DNA of 64,000 bases from Xiphophorus maculatus (Eukaryota > Chordata > Actinopteri > Cyprinodontiformes > Poeciliidae): contig NC_036458.1 in assembly GCF_002775205.1 (NCBI RefSeq), positions 310,001-374,000 on the forward strand, read 5' to 3'. The position numbers and the translations under genes are program-made. The notes beneath the pieces were generated by a model. It was not told where the DNA came from and searched no databases. It saw only the letters and a program-made list of their open reading frames with translations. Shown here piece after piece: positions 4,601 through 41,100 of the stretch; within the stretch, counting starts at the first letter, position 1, and the number at the start of each line of letters is the position of its first letter.

Positions 4601-7600
4601 CTGGACGTCGCTGTGAGTTCTGTCTCAATGACTGCTTACCCTACAAGTCAACAGTATATTGAGCATGCTCCCAGAATTCAGACACAACATGCTGCCACCT
4701 CTTGTGCAGTATCTTTGCCTTTTGGGCATGCATCTAGCGTGCTGTCTTTAGGGTTGTTCTCATTGTGGCCTCTCAAGATGTTGATCAATACCCAGATCAA
4801 TACCCAAGTGGGACCAGGTCAAGGAAACTGTTGTGCTTGACTCAACACCTTCTGACCTTCTGACCAGACACCCTACGGAGAAAACCCATTTCGGCCGCTT
4901 GTATCCGCAATCTTGTTCTTTCGGTCACGACCCAAAGCTCATGACCATAGATGAGGGTGGGAACGTAGATCAACCGATAAATCGAGAGCTTCTCTTTTTG
5001 GCTCAGCTCTCTCTTCACCACGACGGACCGGTACAGCGCCCGCTTGACGGCAGACGCTGCACCAATCCGCCTGTCAATCTCCCGCTCCCTTCTTCCCTCA
5101 TTCATGAACAAGATCCCGAGATACTTGAGCTCCTCCACTTGGGGCAGGACACCCACCCCCCCTGACCCGGAGAAGGCACTCTACCCTTTTCCGGCTCAAG
5201 ACCATGATGGCCTCGGATTTGGAGGCACTGATCCCCATCCTGGCCGCTTCACACTCGACTGCGAACCGCTCCAGCGAGAGCTGCAGATCACAGCCTGATG
5301 AAGCCAAAAGGACCACATCATCCGCAAAAAGCAGAGATGAGATCCTAAGGCCACCAAATCGGATCCCCTCAACACCTTGGCTGGTCTAGAGATTCTGTCC
5401 GAGAATCGGTGACAAAGGGCAGCCCTGGCGGAGTCCAACTCTCACCGGAAACGAGCCCGACTTACTGCCAGCAATGTGGACCAGACTCTGACACCGGTCA
5501 TACAGGGACCTGACAGCCCGTATCAAAGGGCCCGGTACCCCATACTCCTGGAGAACCCACACAGGGCTCCCCGAGGGACACGGTCAGATGCCTTCTCCAA
5601 GTCCACCAAACACATGTAGACTGGTTGGGCGAACTCCCAGAACCCTCCAGGACCCTGCCAAGGGTGTAGAGCTGGTCCAGTGTTCCACGACCAGAACCAG
5701 AACCACACTGTTCTTCCTGAATCCGAGGTTCGACTATCCGATGGACCCTCCTCTCCAGGACCCCTGAATAGACCTTGCCAGGGAGGATTAAGAGCGAGAC
5801 CCCTCTATAATTGGAGCACACCCTCCGGTCCCCCTTTTTGAACAGGGGGACCACCACCCCGGTCTGCCAATCCAGGGGAACTGCCCCTGATGTCCATGCA
5901 ATATTGCAGAGTCGTGTCAGCCAACACAACCCTACAACATCCAGAGCCTTAAGGAACTCCGGGTGGATCTCATCCACCCCCGGGGCCTTGCCACCGAGGA
6001 GCTTTTTAACCACCTCGGCGACCTCATCCCCAGAGATTGGAGAGCCCAACCCAGAGTCCCCAGGCTCAGCTTCCTCAGTGGAAGGCATGTTGGTGGGATT
6101 GAGGAGGTCTTCAAAGTACTCTGCCCACCAGCCCACAATGTCCCGAGTTCAGGTCAGCAGCACACGATCCCCACTATAAACAGTGTTGCCCTCCTGAGAT
6201 GCCGGATGGTCAGTCCCGCCGTCCCTCAGGCTCCTCCAGTGATTCAGTGACATAGCTGCAAAGGGTCAGTAGCATACTTCCATAATCGTAGTTTTATCAT
6301 AAACAAATAAAATAAGGTGGGTGAGAACCAGTGTCAAAACCGGGATTAGAACCTCCCTGTTTGGACCGCAGTCGAGCCGAGTGTTTGTTCTGCAAACTAA
6401 CCCTCTGCCCTGGTAGGAAATCCAAGCTGTTCTGCTGAAGTGGACTGGTGTCTGATCCGGTTAGACCCAGTTTATCAGAACCGTCAGGAAGGACCAGATT
6501 GACCTGACAGCTCATGTTCTCCCTGCAGGCCTCGAACATCATTGAAGACCTGCAGAGAAACAGCGCAAATCTGAGGGAGAAGGCAGAGGAGTTGCAGCAC
6601 AAGGTGAGTCAGAAGCTACCAGAACCAGGTTTAGAACCTCGTAGCAGTGTTTGTTCTGCAAACAGGTCTGCAACCCTAGCAGGAAATCCAACCCACACTC
6701 TGCTGATATGGAAACGGTGTCTGAACTGATTGATCAGCACTATCAGGAAGGTCCAGATTAACCTGAGGGTTCATGTTCTCCTACAGGCCTTGAAGGTCAT
6801 CGAGCAGCTGCAGGACAGCAAAGATCTGAAGGAGAAGACCGATGACATGCAGCACAAGGTGGGTCAGAACAAGATTTAGTAGCAGTAAGAACCTGGGTCA
6901 GAACCAGCGTAATTTGACTTTCTTTGACATTAAATTCTTGAACAAGCAAGATATATTCTGCCAAACATGGATACATTTACTGGTTTCGACCAGCTTAAAC
7001 CAGTAAAACCAGTCGCTGCAGTTGTTTTTATTCCTGTTTAAATGAATAAAAATCCAGAATATTCAGATTATTCTCAGTCCTCCTCCTTCTGTGTTCAGAT
7101 GGAGGTGCAGGCAGGTCTGGAGAACTGCTGCCAACGTCTGGACGTCCTGGACAAGGCAGTGGTGAGTCTGTAGGGCTGCACTCTCACCTGTGGGGGTGCT
7201 CTAGACAAAACTTCTGCAGATGGTCTCTGCTTCTGATTTCTACTGGAATCTGGAGTCTATTGTTTCTGAGCTGAGCAGAACCGGAACCATGAACTGGACC
7301 TGAACGAGGTCAGAACTTCTCTCATTCTGTGTTATGGTTCCAACAGGAATCCATACAGGAACTCTTCCAGATGTATCCGGACCCAGAGGAGCTCAACCAA
7401 TGTGTGACCTGGGTCCAGTTGGTTGAGAAGGACATGGAGGTTGATGAGGTAAGGAGAAGAACCTTAGAGAGGAACCAGTTCAGTGAACTGTTTGTCCCAA
7501 AGGGATTCACTTTCAGAATATCCGAAAACAACCATTTCTGGCAGTTCTGATGACAGATCTGGGAATTAGTCAGGAAGTAATGTACACTTCTTGGTTCCAT

Positions 7601-26474: not shown

Positions 26475-28607
<2,133 letters not shown>

Positions 28608-35156: not shown

Positions 35157-38100
35157 ATGCCGTCCAACAAGTCCGTGTCCGACGCTCCCATCATCCAGTT
35201 CACCGACTGTAGAATCCTGAGGGAGCACAAGCTGCAGAGGTACTGTCAGGGTCAAAGGTCAAAGCAACGTGGCCTGCTTAGATCAGTGTCAGGTATATCT
35301 GTACTAAACTGGCTAAATATAAGATACCTGATAACTCCGTCGGCGCCTCCTACAGGAATGGGTTGTTCCAATACTTCATTTTTTTTTTTTTTTTCTTTCG
35401 AAAAATTTTTATTGTTACTGTAAACATTTAAAAACATTACATTGTTGCAATTATTCAGAAATTTCTAAAAACTTTCAAATTCATCAATTTAGGCTAAAAG
35501 AAGCTAAGAACAAGAATTATAAAATACAAAATCTCTGTGTGTTAAAAGTTGAGCAGGACCGGGGTGACTCCCTCCCAAGTCCGGAGCCGTCCCGTCCTTC
35601 CAGACAGCGCTTGGTGCTCAGAGGGGATCCCGCCCTAAAGCTCCTTCCCTCCTGCCTCACCCGGAGAGCCAGGCCGCCGCTGCTTGGACCTCTGCTCGTG
35701 GAGCGCCGGCTCCTTCGTCCACGGAGGCGCAGGCGATTCTTCTTGGTGGCTGTGTCCTTGGCGCGCCACCTGCAGCCCTTGATGTTCCTCTTTTGCTGCT
35801 GCCATCCGGATCACAGCCACGGGGGGCATCTGCCTGCGCCTGCTCACCAGCAAGTTTCTGGAGGTCCAAATGGCGTCTTTGATGGTGGCTGGGGTGAGCC
35901 ACCTCTCAGCGAAGTCTTTTTTAGTCATTTTCTGCTGGCTCACCCCGTACAGCACTAACTGTGCATGGAGGACCTCCCTTGCTGGCAAGTGTGGGAATTG
36001 CAAGGAGCCGGCCTTCGCCCACAGGTCCACAGCAGCGCTGCACTCCCACAGCAGGGGCCTCACCGACTCCGGCGCGCCACAACCGGGTCGGGGGCAGATG
36101 GACGTTGCAGACATGCCGCGTGAGTGCATAACGGCTCCGACCGGCAGGATCCCATGAGCCACCATCCATGACATCCTGGAGTCTGTTTGGAAGGACGGGA
36201 CGGCTCACGTTGCGCCAAACGGTGGAGGCGTCTCCGTACAGGAGGCCGCGCACTGGAGTCACTGGTTCCCGGTCCTGCACAACAGGGGCAATAAAACAAT
36301 TAGTTAAAATCTTGTTCTCCTCTCCTTCCAGTCCAAAATGTTCTAAAAATTTCCGAATAAAAGCATATATAAGAGAAAGGTTAAAACCTACTGGGGTTCT
36401 AAAATCTCTTATTTTTAATTTTCTGTATCTTTTTCTGTCTAAAAAGTCATACCTGTCTTGTTTGTCATTAAAGCCATAAATATTTAAGAGGTTAAAATCC
36501 TGTCCGTTAAAAGTCAGATTTGCTAAAAGTGCTCGTCCCTCTCTCACCACGGTGCTCCCCTTCACCAAGATGTGCGGGTTGTTTATTAAAATGGCCACGC
36601 CGTCATTTTTATTTCCATTGGAGCCGCTCCATATAGACGGCCGTGGCCACAAGTCCTGCCACCGGGTGTAAGTCTTTAAAAACGGGAGTGAACATTCTTG
36701 TAGTAAAACCACATCTGACTGTACGGAGGTTAAAAAGGATAAAACACTCTGGGCTCTAACTCGCGACTTCACACTTCTAACATTGATGGTTGAGAAGGTG
36801 AGAGTCATGAGTATGATGGCTAAAATCACGTACGACATTTTAAAGGATTAAAGACAAGATAAGACTAATTTAAACCCATGTTAAAAAACGGGCGGTCATT
36901 AAAACAAGGCGGGTTCAGAGACTGTCCTGTGAACAGAGCTCTTCCTTCCCACATGGTGGTGCAGGTCGGGTTGGAGCTCCATTCCCCCTTCGGACTCTCG
37001 GTGTCGGCCGTCTTTCTAAAGCCGTTACCTTGTTTGGGTCCTCCGGGGTTGATTGGTGAGCAAAGTCTAGGAACGAGACCTCATTGGATGAGCCAGCGAG
37101 GAAGGCTTTGGATTCCTCTCCGAAAGAACCGAAGAGTTCCTCCAGCCTTCCTCTCTTCCCTACCTTGGGGGTAAGGTCGGGAGGTGACTCAGATGCCGGC
37201 CTCTTAGCCAGCTGGGCGTCGGGGAGGGGGGCATCATCGCTGCTGTCCGTCTGTTCCTCCTCAGAATCCGAGCTAGCTCCGCCTTCGGTTAGCATCTCCC
37301 CCCCCTCACTGGATGTTTCGGTCTGGGGGGGGGCTTCCTTCCCCTCCCCGCTTCCCGCCCTCTCCTCCTCTCCTCCAATCAGAGGACCTGGCGGGAGATT
37401 TGAATTTTCCGACCCAGCTGAGTCCACTTGCTCATTAGCCGTTTCTGTTGGCGTCTCTTTTCCTTTTTTCAGTTTATTTGCAAACGACTTTGGACAGTCT
37501 CTGAACAGATGATCCTGTCCACCACACAAATTACATTTCCGCCCGTTCCTACATTCATCAAAAGTGTGTCCCACTTCTCGACATTTACCACAGAAGACTT
37601 TCTCACAAGTTTCGGCCAGATGACCATGCTCGCCGCACTTCCGGCACAGTTTGGGTTGGCCTTGATAGTGAATGTAGCCTCTGTTCTCCCCCAGGACTAT
37701 CATTGAGGGGAGATGCTTCAGGCCCTGGAAGCCTTGGGGGTCTTCCCATTGTTTAATGGGGACCCGCCAAGCACAGTTCCAGATACCGTCCACATCCCGC
37801 ACCTTCATAGCCTGGCCTCTCACAGTGCAGTATCTACCCAGCCACATACAGATGTCTTCAGCACTGACAGTCTCATTGAACATCCTGACAATCACCGTTT
37901 TCAGGGAGTTGTCAGTCAGTTTCTCGACGTCAAAAGCTGAAAACTGGGTCTTAGCATTTTCAAACCGTGTCCAAAATTCCTTAAGAAGTGCGGCAGAGCA
38001 AAAACTTACGTCATATCCTTTGTTGAAAGGCAGGGTAAGGATACAATTCAGGTCATCTGGCCGAAACTTCAGCACCTGTTGGATTAGTTTTCTGGAAAAG

Positions 38101-41100
38101 TCCAATCTTGTTACTCTATTTTCTTCTTCTCTTTCTTTAAATAAAAATCGAACACTGTGGTGCCTCCGCATGCCGGCATGGCTAGCCGCCATGGTGGAGG
38201 CACCACCAGTTAAAAGTTTAAAACCTTTACTAAAACCAATAAATAGTTAAAAAAAAACACCAATAAATACAAATAAAAGGTAAAAGATATTTTCCACTAC
38301 TTAGTGGTCAATATCTCACCCGGGGACGAAATTTACTGAACCTCAAAATCAGTGGCAACAGCCAAGTCACAAAGACTACCGCTATCACCACCCAAAGGAG
38401 GGGACCGCTGTCTTAGCCAAAAGGCCGAGAAGCGATCCAATACTTCATGGTTCAGGAAACCTTGAAGAGGTTTTATTTAGGCCAATCCGACTCATAAACA
38501 AGCTCCGACACTAAATGTATTCAGAACCCAAAACTTCTTCATGGTTTTAGTGAGCTGTTCTCTGTTATTGATAATGTTTGGATATTTTGAAACTGGAGGA
38601 CGGGTAACCTGGACGTCCTTTGTCTCTGTAGGGAGGACCTGTGGGTCCGGGACGGGAAGATCCTGGACCCAGAGAAGCTGTTCTTCGACGAGCAGGGCTA
38701 CGCCGACTGTCGCCTCGACTGCGGAGGCGCCATCGTCGCCCCGGGCTTTATCGACGTCCAGATCAACGGTGAGGGACGCGTCCCTCAAGAGGACGGCCGG
38801 GGGACGGACGCTCAGACGTCTTCTCTCGTCCCGCAGGAGGCTATGGCGTGGATTTCTCCCAGCCCTGCGAAGACGTCTCCGCCGGAGTGTCTCTGGTGGC
38901 CAAGAAGATCCTGGAACACGGCGTGACGTCCTTCTGTCCCACCCTGGTTACGTCTCCGCCCGCCGTCTACCACCAGGTGGCGTCCTCCTCTGGACTGGAG
39001 AACCTGAAGGTCCAACGGGTCCAACGGGTCCTGCTGCTGGGTTTAACATCCTGAATGTGTTTCAGGTTCTGCCTCAGATCAACGTTCACAATGGAGGACC
39101 TGATGGAGCCGGAGTCCTGGGTAAGACCAGAGGGCAAAGTTCAGTTCTTGTTTTTGATGTCTTCTGGGTCCGACCGGCACCAAGTAGAGCAGAACCTTCT
39201 GAACAGTGTGGCAGGATTTTAAACAGGTCCACAGAGACAGAAACCAGTAGAATTTCCTGCCATCCGGTCTTCAAGGAGAACACCAGTTTTTAGGGATTCA
39301 GGTCTGACTTTAACTAGGCCATACTAACCTATGAAGCCCATGATGAGCAGAAATGAACCCTGTTGGACCCCAGGGCGATCCATGTTGTCTGCTGCTTGTC
39401 CAGCCTGTCCCCCATGGACAGACTCCTGTCTCATGTCCCCGGCGTCCAGGGTTCCACCTGGAGGGTCCGTTCATCAGCTCGGAGAAGCGGGGCGCCCACC
39501 CGGAGCGGTTCTTGAGGACGTTCCGGTCCGGAGGGTCGGACGACCTGATGGAGACCTATGGCAGCCTGGACAACGTTGCCATGGTGACGCTGGCTCCCGA
39601 GTTGCCCCACAGCCAATCGGTGGTCAGCACTCTGCGGCAGAAGGGCGTCACTGTGTCTCTAGGTGGTTCTCCCTGACCCCACGGTTCTGGTTCTGGTGAG
39701 TCGGGTCAGCCGTGTGACGTAGAGACGCTGTTTGCAGGACATTCGGTGGCCAACCTGTCCCAGGCGGAGGACGCCGTGCGCCACGGGGCCTCCTTCATCA
39801 CCCACCTGTTCAACGCCATGCTGCCGGTGAGTCCCAACAGAACCGGGGCTGGTCAGGACCTGGCTCGGTCAGGAGGTTCTGACCCTACCCTCTCTCTACC
39901 TGGCCCAGTTCCACCACCGCGACCCGGGCATCGTGGGTCTCCTGACCAGCGACCAGATCCCGGCGGGTCGCACTGTGTTCTACGGGATGATCGCTGACGG
40001 GATCCACACCAACCCGGCCGCCTTGCGCATCGCACACCGGGCGCACCCTTCAGGTCCGTTCCGGGACGTTCTGACCGGACCCGAACCAGAGACGTGTAAA
40101 TGTCCAGGATGTGTGTGTGTCCCTCAGGGCTGGTGCTGGTGACGGACGCCATCACGGCCATGGGCCTCCCTCCGGGCCGCCACACGCTGGGCCAACAGGT
40201 CGTCCAGATCCAGGGACTGCACGCCTACGTGGCAGGTCTGCGTCTCCCTCGCCGCTGCCGCCGCCGCCGCCATTAGCTGCTGAGCAGGGGAAAAGTAGTT
40301 GACCCTTCCGGATTCCTCCTGCTTTGGATGTTTCATTTTATTGATTAAAGTCAAGGACAAATTTTAAAACAATTTCGGAAATATTGATCTAGCTTCGAGG
40401 CTGGCCTAGTCAAAGTCTGGATATAAATCAGACTGAGATGGTACGTCATGACCTTAATCAGGTTGAATCAGCCCTCCCATTTGTCTGAAAGAGCAGGGTC
40501 AAAGGTCATCCACAGTGATGTTAGTCAGCTGTCAGATTCTGTTTTTAAGTGATGAATACTTTTTCACAAATTAGTTGAATTTAGGAGTTTTTTTTTCTTT
40601 AACAAGTGAAGTTATCAGGTTAAAGCCGCTATCTTTGTCCCGTTAAAGTTAGTTTAATCTGAAACCAAATTATTTTCCTTTGGAATCAATAAAGGGCTTC
40701 TGAATTTGAGCATTTAGGTTAGGTTAGGCTAAACTTTATTAATCCCATAGGGAAATTGAGGTTATCTGTTGCTCACACATTAATTCACATCCACACAGCA
40801 TTAAAATCCTACAGCTGGAGACATCCATAAAAGGTAGTTCATCCCGCGAATCCACAAATCTATTAATGCTGACTTGCATTAGCAGATTTAGGCTAATCGT
40901 CCACACAAGAACAAACTTATCACATTCACGCAGCACCGACCAGTGAGCAACAAACGTGCAGCCTCGCTCACGCAGGCTCAAAAAGAGAGTTTTTTCCGTT
41001 TTACGAAGCAGCAGCAGAAATCTGAAAGGGGCTGAAGTACACAGCAATACTACACATTGCTGTGTGTTTGTAATTATTCCCAGTTGATCCTGTGGGATTA

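Follow-up and report, generated by a model that had tools for sequence, protein, structure and literature searches.

A dispersed, internally deleted LINE copy headed by the first 26 nucleotides of U2 snRNA and its probable sources in U2 genes

The window copy and its U2 leader

The window, the whole 64,000-nt stretch of DNA that was analyzed, contains on its minus strand a LINE retrocopy whose 5' end consists of U2 snRNA sequence (Table 1). Read on the minus strand, positions 38436-38411 are ATCGCTTCTCGGCCTTTTGGCTAAGA, identical at 26/26 nt to the start of the U2 genes L001, L006, and L007 of the same genome, and the first base past this leader opens the LINE 5' UTR (CAGCGGTCC...). This confirms the original prediction of an exact match to U2 nt 1 to 26 that gives way to LINE sequence. 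The Rfam U2 alignment at the leader places model position 1 at 38436 with a score of 25.3 bits against a gathering score of 46 (E = 0.0024); at the gathering threshold, Rfam gave no match anywhere in the 64,000-nt window. The leader stops exactly where the pairing of U2 stem-loop I (nt 7 to 26) ends. The retrocopy lies between the two halves of a perfect 12-bp duplication, the 5' one of which abuts U2 nt 1. No reverse transcriptase match was found with Pfam in the window copy, which is internally deleted.

On the plus strand, a segment coding for N-acetylglucosamine-6-phosphate deacetylase (window positions 38630-38770; PDB 7nut, E = 2.8e-19) is separated from the LINE 5' end by about 190 bp. 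The LINE is antisense to this gene, which we take to be AMDHD2, and probably sits in an intron of it. Elsewhere in the window (27489-28607, plus strand), a reading frame with a forkhead domain is followed by an 11-residue unit repeated in tandem about 11 times.

Table 1. Features of the retrocopy in the window (window coordinates)
Feature	Position	Strand	Evidence
U2 snRNA nt 1-26 leader with stem-loop I, 5' end of the retrocopy	38411..38436	-	identity to host U2, Rfam alignment
Target-site duplication, 5' copy (ATGAAGTATTGG), touching U2 nt 1	38437..38448	-	repeat match
Target-site duplication, 3' copy	35368..35379	-	repeat match
Entire retrocopy: U2 leader, 3.03-kb internally deleted LINE, poly(A)	35380..38436	-	
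LINE 5' UTR, starting CAGCGGT	38193..38410	-	junction common to the family
ORF1: ZCCHC3-type RNA-binding domains and CCHC zinc knuckles	36915..38192	-	reading frame and domain match
ORF2, N-terminal part: AP-type endonuclease (Exo_endo_phos), shortened by the internal deletion	36438..36838	-	
Internal deletion breakpoint, where the reverse transcriptase region is missing (query 1999-2015)	36421..36438	-	
ORF2, C-terminal segment: zf-RVT similarity (E 0.00029, below Pfam's cut-off)	35638..36204	-	
Poly(A) tail, 15 A	35380..35394	-	

Leader-bearing copies in the genome

One genome (704 Mb in 101 contigs), of which the window is C16:310001-374000, was searched, and all copy counts given here are lower bounds. 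The first 300 nt of the element were found in at least 40 places (40 of 49 first-look candidates were scored), and U2 nt 5 to 26, with up to 2 mismatches, in at least 58. A reversed control pattern had no match in the 704-Mb genome, which excludes a chance origin of the leader. Among the 58 or more leader places, 38 are leaders of this LINE or of a diverged relative (32 of them read, and 6 assigned by their position in the 300-nt search); the remaining 20 are genes or fragments of U2 or belong to the outer part of nested copies. The 5' end was read in 33 copies, namely, the 30 copies L009 to L038 together with L059, L061, and L064, a set from which 8 of the 40 places of the 300-nt search were left out. 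The leader, either whole or up to 5 nt short at its start, was joined to CAGCGG or a close variant in 31 of these 33. The other two are L061, in which the leader is joined to a diverged body, and L032 (the same locus as L056), which has no leader and yet a perfect duplication. The diverged copy L064 has retained the CAGCGG junction and all but one of the 26 leader bases. By the promoter test described below, 28 of the 33 read copies, L064 among them, lie outside U2 genes. The search proposed with the original prediction, for dispersed copies with the same leader and an identical junction, therefore returned many, and the leader is a property of the family rather than a peculiarity of the window copy. 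Ordinary 5' truncation seems to occur too, with at least 117 first-look candidates for the LINE 3' end against at least 49 for the 5' end.

Independent insertion events are fewer than copies, because several copies are duplicates or are arranged in complex ways. Seven leader-bearing copies in two flank types at C13:6240292-6569126 apparently spread by segmental duplication of one insertion. L021 (C14), L023 (C1), and L030 (C5) all begin at U2 nt 5 and have a common 150-nt 5' flank (97 to 100% identity), forming a duplicated or composite unit. At C2:428609-431866, two leader-bearing 5' ends, L034 and L037, stand 3 kb apart in a complex arrangement; a TGATGGTCAAAC-like sequence is common to the 5' flank of L034 and the 3' flank of L037, as if one insertion had been interrupted or duplicated.

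Both flanks and the target-site duplication could be placed at 12 dispersed loci, with duplications of 10 to 17 bp. U2 nt 1 stands directly at the duplication in 5 of the 12 (the window copy, L041, L045, L051, and, with its outer leader, L048). In L044, leader nt 1 follows two extra bases, and in L043 the leader begins at nt 2 after one extra base. The start lies at nt 3 or later in another 5 of the 12: at nt 3 to 6 in L040, L042, L039 (with 14 filler bases), and L057 and at nt 27 in L056. None of the 12 begins upstream of U2 +1. The start of L056 coincides with the foot of U2 stem-loop I, and a stop of the reverse transcriptase there might explain this one copy. Poly(A) tails together with the duplications at these 12 loci are features of target-primed retrocopies, and leader-bearing copies with duplications outside U2 genes support the earlier proposal that the RNA was copied into non-U2 sites. 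A close similarity of the dispersed target sites to U2 was considered and rejected; the sites show only a weak preference, in that A precedes the first base other than A of the duplication at 10 of the 12, as counted by eye (binomial P of about 1.5e-4 at an assumed A frequency of 0.29, with L044 and L045, which lie in the same repeat, being nonindependent). These two insertions occupy almost the same position in separate copies of one repeat (148-nt flanks, 97% alike), with different duplications.

Long and internally deleted forms of the LINE are both present. When 20 loci were compared, 14 (L040 to L043, L045 to L047, L049, L051, L053, L054, and L056 to L058, with L043 in two pieces) matched the window copy from near one end to near the other without the reverse transcriptase region. 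L044, in contrast, has about 4.07 kb of additional sequence between query positions 1999 and 2015, including an RVT_1 domain (E = 1.1e-33), and its zf-RVT match exceeds the Pfam cut-off, unlike that of the window copy; its reading frames are broken. L055 continues through the breakpoint with a longer endonuclease frame (PF03372, E = 6.6e-10, compared with 2.1e-5 in the window). Within the reverse transcriptase part of L044, a minus-strand reading frame at 6084-6569 presumably resembles the end of a hAT transposase.

Copies resident in U2 genes and the apparent exchange of leaders

A second search proposed at the outset, for LINE copies inserted after U2 nt 26 in U2 genes, yielded five copies with a U2 promoter upstream, four of this LINE and one of a diverged relative on C18. 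In L046 (C8), which adjoins a U2 tandem array, and in L049 (C4), the U2 promoter is followed by U2 nt 1 to 26, LINE, poly(A), and U2 from nt 39, with U2 nt 27 to 38 missing; the resumed U2 of L046 carries one substitution. At C4:336968, the same two end types (L059 and L060), of which the ends alone were read, stand 4.3 kb apart, and the resumed U2 has a 3-nt gap. The 5' flank of L036 (C5:710131) is identical over 60 nt, and at 91 of 100 nt, to that of a U2 gene on C1; downstream lie another LINE 3' end and a U2 fragment, both known by coordinates only. In L061 (C18:3698633), the U2 promoter and U2 nt 1 to 26 precede the diverged body, and a U2 fragment, likewise known by coordinates, follows. 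The 3' end was read in three of the five resident copies, and U2 resumes at nt 39 in all three. The junction of U2 nt 26 with CAGCGG is present in four of the five, in support of the predicted parent LINE inside a U2 gene. Since L046 and L049 are of the deleted form, the deleted form itself occupies the source site.

The promoter test relied on a motif upstream of U2 genes that we call PSE-like. Its core occurs at -66 to -44 in all five resident copies and in none of the 28 other copies read, for which the flank of L064 was extended and each nested copy was checked upstream of both its leaders; all eight U2 genes examined have an extended version of the motif at -58 to -60.

Base 23 aside, five of the six changes in the leaders of L020, L059, L061, and L064 (four resident or diverged copies, picked post hoc) fall in the UUUU loop (nt 15 to 17) of U2 stem-loop I, and none falls in the stem. 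L062 (C5:2585290-2585470) is a fragment of U2 nt 1 to 35 flanked by the direct repeat AAATTAGCTGACTTT, without LINE sequence, and looks like a short U2 retrocopy.

Leader base 23 is either A or C, and both alleles exist in the U2 of the host: C in matches above the Rfam cut-off at C3:16812595, C5:8099137, C5:8389768, and C18:3444863 (158 to 175 bits) and A in the C8 array and on C20 and C1 (192 to 195 bits). On a tree of 29 LINE bodies built without the leader (L034, of 296 nt, was left out; L032, having no leader, was in the tree and outside the allele count), the alleles require at least 7 changes over 28 rows, and a tree holding the A leaders together was rejected (p-AU = 1.1e-5). A check on 17 rows, leaving out 13 of 30 (duplicates, short rows, L032, and L034), required 6 changes (p-AU = 8e-6). 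Different alleles are carried by the members of two well-supported sister pairs, L012/L036 and L015/L035, both with support of 99/96. Base 23 does not follow the body tree, as if leaders had been exchanged. The exchange would come about either by renewal of leaders from the target gene or by recombination between LINE RNAs, and both routes point to sources with different U2 leaders; exchange between LINE RNAs and renewal at U2 genes are indistinguishable here because the 17-row tree has 1 well-supported branch among its 14 inner ones and both trees have an extreme rate shape. With base 23 excluded, the pairwise difference in the 20 of 30 copies used was 0.011 for leader nt 7 to 26 and 0.015 for nt 1 to 26, compared with 0.027 for LINE nt 27 to 300, the leader itself being short.

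Origin of the leader and comparison with known systems

Collectively, these findings suggest, with a probability of roughly 0.85, that the window copy belongs to a Keno-like LINE that has its sources in U2 genes and whose RNA starts at U2 +1, and that it is a dispersed and internally deleted member of this family. U2 snRNA genes are transcribed by RNA polymerase II. In the source copies, the LINE after U2 nt 26 would stand directly under the U2 promoter; judged from the 5' ends of the copies and the position of the promoter, transcription would begin at U2 +1 and give a LINE RNA headed by U2 nt 1 to 26, and the transcript would have to extend through a 3-kb or 7-kb insert as far as its poly(A) site. 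For the deleted form, the enzyme for target-primed reverse transcription would be supplied in trans. Copying of the RNA into a non-U2 site, either completely or with a few bases missing at the 5' end, would yield the observed order of duplication, U2 nt 1 to 26, LINE, poly(A), and duplication. At a U2 site, the leader may instead pair with U2 nt 1 to 26 of the target, which would rebuild the order of promoter, U2 nt 1 to 26, and LINE seen in the resident copies, with nt 27 to 38 lost. A leader that did not pair would be expected to leave a nested junction (U2 nt 1 to 47, U2 nt 1 to 26, LINE), and two dispersed copies carry such a nested leader.

The original prediction had named template jumping as the alternative and had preferred a one-off switch in case no other copy had the leader and no U2 gene carried the LINE; copies of both kinds were found. 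Jumps of R2 onto U12 snRNA are known, and recurring jumps of L1 onto U6 are mentioned as well, in the available text of PMC3414825. A single switch of the reverse transcriptase, on reaching the LINE 5' end, to nt 26 of U2 snRNA would nevertheless leave unexplained why the junction of U2 nt 26 with CAGCGG is the same in differently flanked dispersed copies and in four of five resident copies, whereas independent jumps would scatter across U2; as the origin of the window leader, this explanation fails and is extremely improbable. A more serious alternative is that U2 nt 1 to 26 was captured once, long ago, that an internal promoter of the LINE starts there, and that residence in U2 genes reflects target choice only. 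The presence of the leader in 32 of the 33 read copies, the greater number of dispersed than of resident copies, and the interleaving of the two in the tree would all fit a single capture. Against it, the start base is exactly U2 nt 1, the PSE-like motif precedes every resident copy and none of the others read, base 23 switches between two host U2 alleles regardless of the body, and the leader, though short, is less variable than the LINE. We consider a single ancient capture improbable and retain transcription from the U2 promoter. A ribozyme at the junction of leader and LINE was also considered as the source of the defined 5' end and rejected, as no ribozyme family was among the three Rfam matches in 38150-38460 (E up to 10). 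The 5' UTR can pair with U2 nt 1 to 6, extending stem-loop I, and the 86-nt fold beats all 200 shuffles (z = -4.77); we give this pairing little weight because some random 12-mers do equally well (180 of 5,000 pair all six leader bases, and 262 of 5,000 match the energy).

The nested leaders bear on the proposed return to U2 genes. In L047 and L048, both on C2, an outer U2 fragment running to nt 47 (from nt 4 in L047 and nt 1 in L048) is followed by U2 nt 1 to 26 and then the LINE. The outer fragment is the variant seen in the U2 gene L008 on C5, and its end at nt 47 would be expected if an insertion at nt 38/39 had duplicated the 9 bp of nt 39 to 47. The two sites lie 17.8 kb apart and have different flanks, with a 12-bp duplication in L048 and a shorter, imperfect one, read by eye, in L047; the copies are sisters in the body tree (100/99). 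The simplest history is that both stem from a parent in a nested U2 gene, transcribed from U2 +1. A U2 gene with this arrangement was not among the copies read, and jumps of reverse transcriptase onto snRNA are known (available text of PMC3414825), so that jumps from LINE RNA onto U2 RNA might have produced the nested copies. This seems doubtful to us, given that two differently flanked insertions of one clade have the same outer fragment and that it stops at the far end of the 39-47 duplication and not at the U2 3' end. The findings can be extended to a renewable, host-supplied 5' end: the U2 promoter would write U2 nt 1 to 26, up to the end of stem-loop I, onto each RNA, return to a U2 gene would re-form the fusion with a new host-gene allele through pairing of the leader with the target, and off-target copies would be promoterless escapes. 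We regard the odds of this extension as even. If it is true, a target-specific LINE would have captured the promoter of an snRNA gene in a manner that restores itself, and the LINE RNA would perhaps also make use of the U2 5' hairpin or an snRNA-type cap. By restoring the promoter at each return, leader pairing may offer an element tied to a low-copy, essential snRNA gene a route to persist.

The transcription of most LINEs is described as poorly understood in the available text of PMC3774820; the case that has been studied in depth is R2, with its ribosomal cotranscripts. Here, because a leader from the first base of the gene reaches dispersed copies, genomic sequence can show where the transposing RNA starts. 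The same source describes an R2 ribozyme cleaving inside 28S and proposes that the resulting leader on the cDNA pairs with the target, giving uniform 5' junctions. Here, Rfam (E up to 10) detected no HDV-like ribozyme at the LINE 5' end, and the RNA end would instead be set by the start site of the U2 gene itself. R2 SIDEs, as described in the available part of PMC3414825, are internally deleted, nonautonomous LINEs that are maintained in the target gene and believed to be mobilized in trans; in contrast to these, the present deleted form retains ORF1 and part of the endonuclease, and the same deletion recurs in 14 of 20 loci.

Two elements of U2 genes invite comparison. Utopia is inserted at U2 nt 39, with the same flank as Keno, and has the same 3' boundary in U2 as the present LINE; it differs in its restriction-like endonuclease (PD..D/ExK), that found here being of the AP type (available text of PMC4640811, which also mentions weakly target-specific families of Utopia). 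Keno, a Tx1-type LINE of U2 genes with an AP endonuclease, is quoted with the target TCTGTTCTTATCAG, 37 nt downstream of the U2 start (available text of PMC6136364), and L046, L049, and L060 have a 3' flank beginning with TCTGTTCTTATCAG. The target site and the AP-type endonuclease in ORF2 (PF03372) are the features that suggest a Tx1-clade Keno as the parent, and we say Keno-like because insertions are not confined to U2 genes, a confinement that the available text does not use to define Keno. For Keno, no mention of a U2 leader, a fixed junction at nt 26, nested junctions, or many off-target copies was found in the available text. No report of a U2 leader on Keno copies was found in the available text of PMC4640811, PMC6136364, PMC9323068, and PMC3706591, a scope that does not extend to the original Keno description.

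A close precedent is the melanogaster-type R1 of Drosophila, for which Stage and Eickbush (available text of PMC2718515) describe a precise target deletion, a 28S leader on off-target copies, and junctions in which duplications are followed by the leader. In R1 copies outside 28S, the 28S segment has a length of 7 to 28 bp and ends at -9; duplication-type junctions include 16 to 27 bp. Both elements appear to have a host-gene leader in the transcript that is carried into off-target copies, both have a target deletion with a precise 5' junction (9 bp in R1 and 12 nt here), and both have junctions of duplication and leader. They differ in that the host gene of R1 encodes 28S rRNA, whereas here it encodes U2 snRNA and the leader reaches the first base of the gene.
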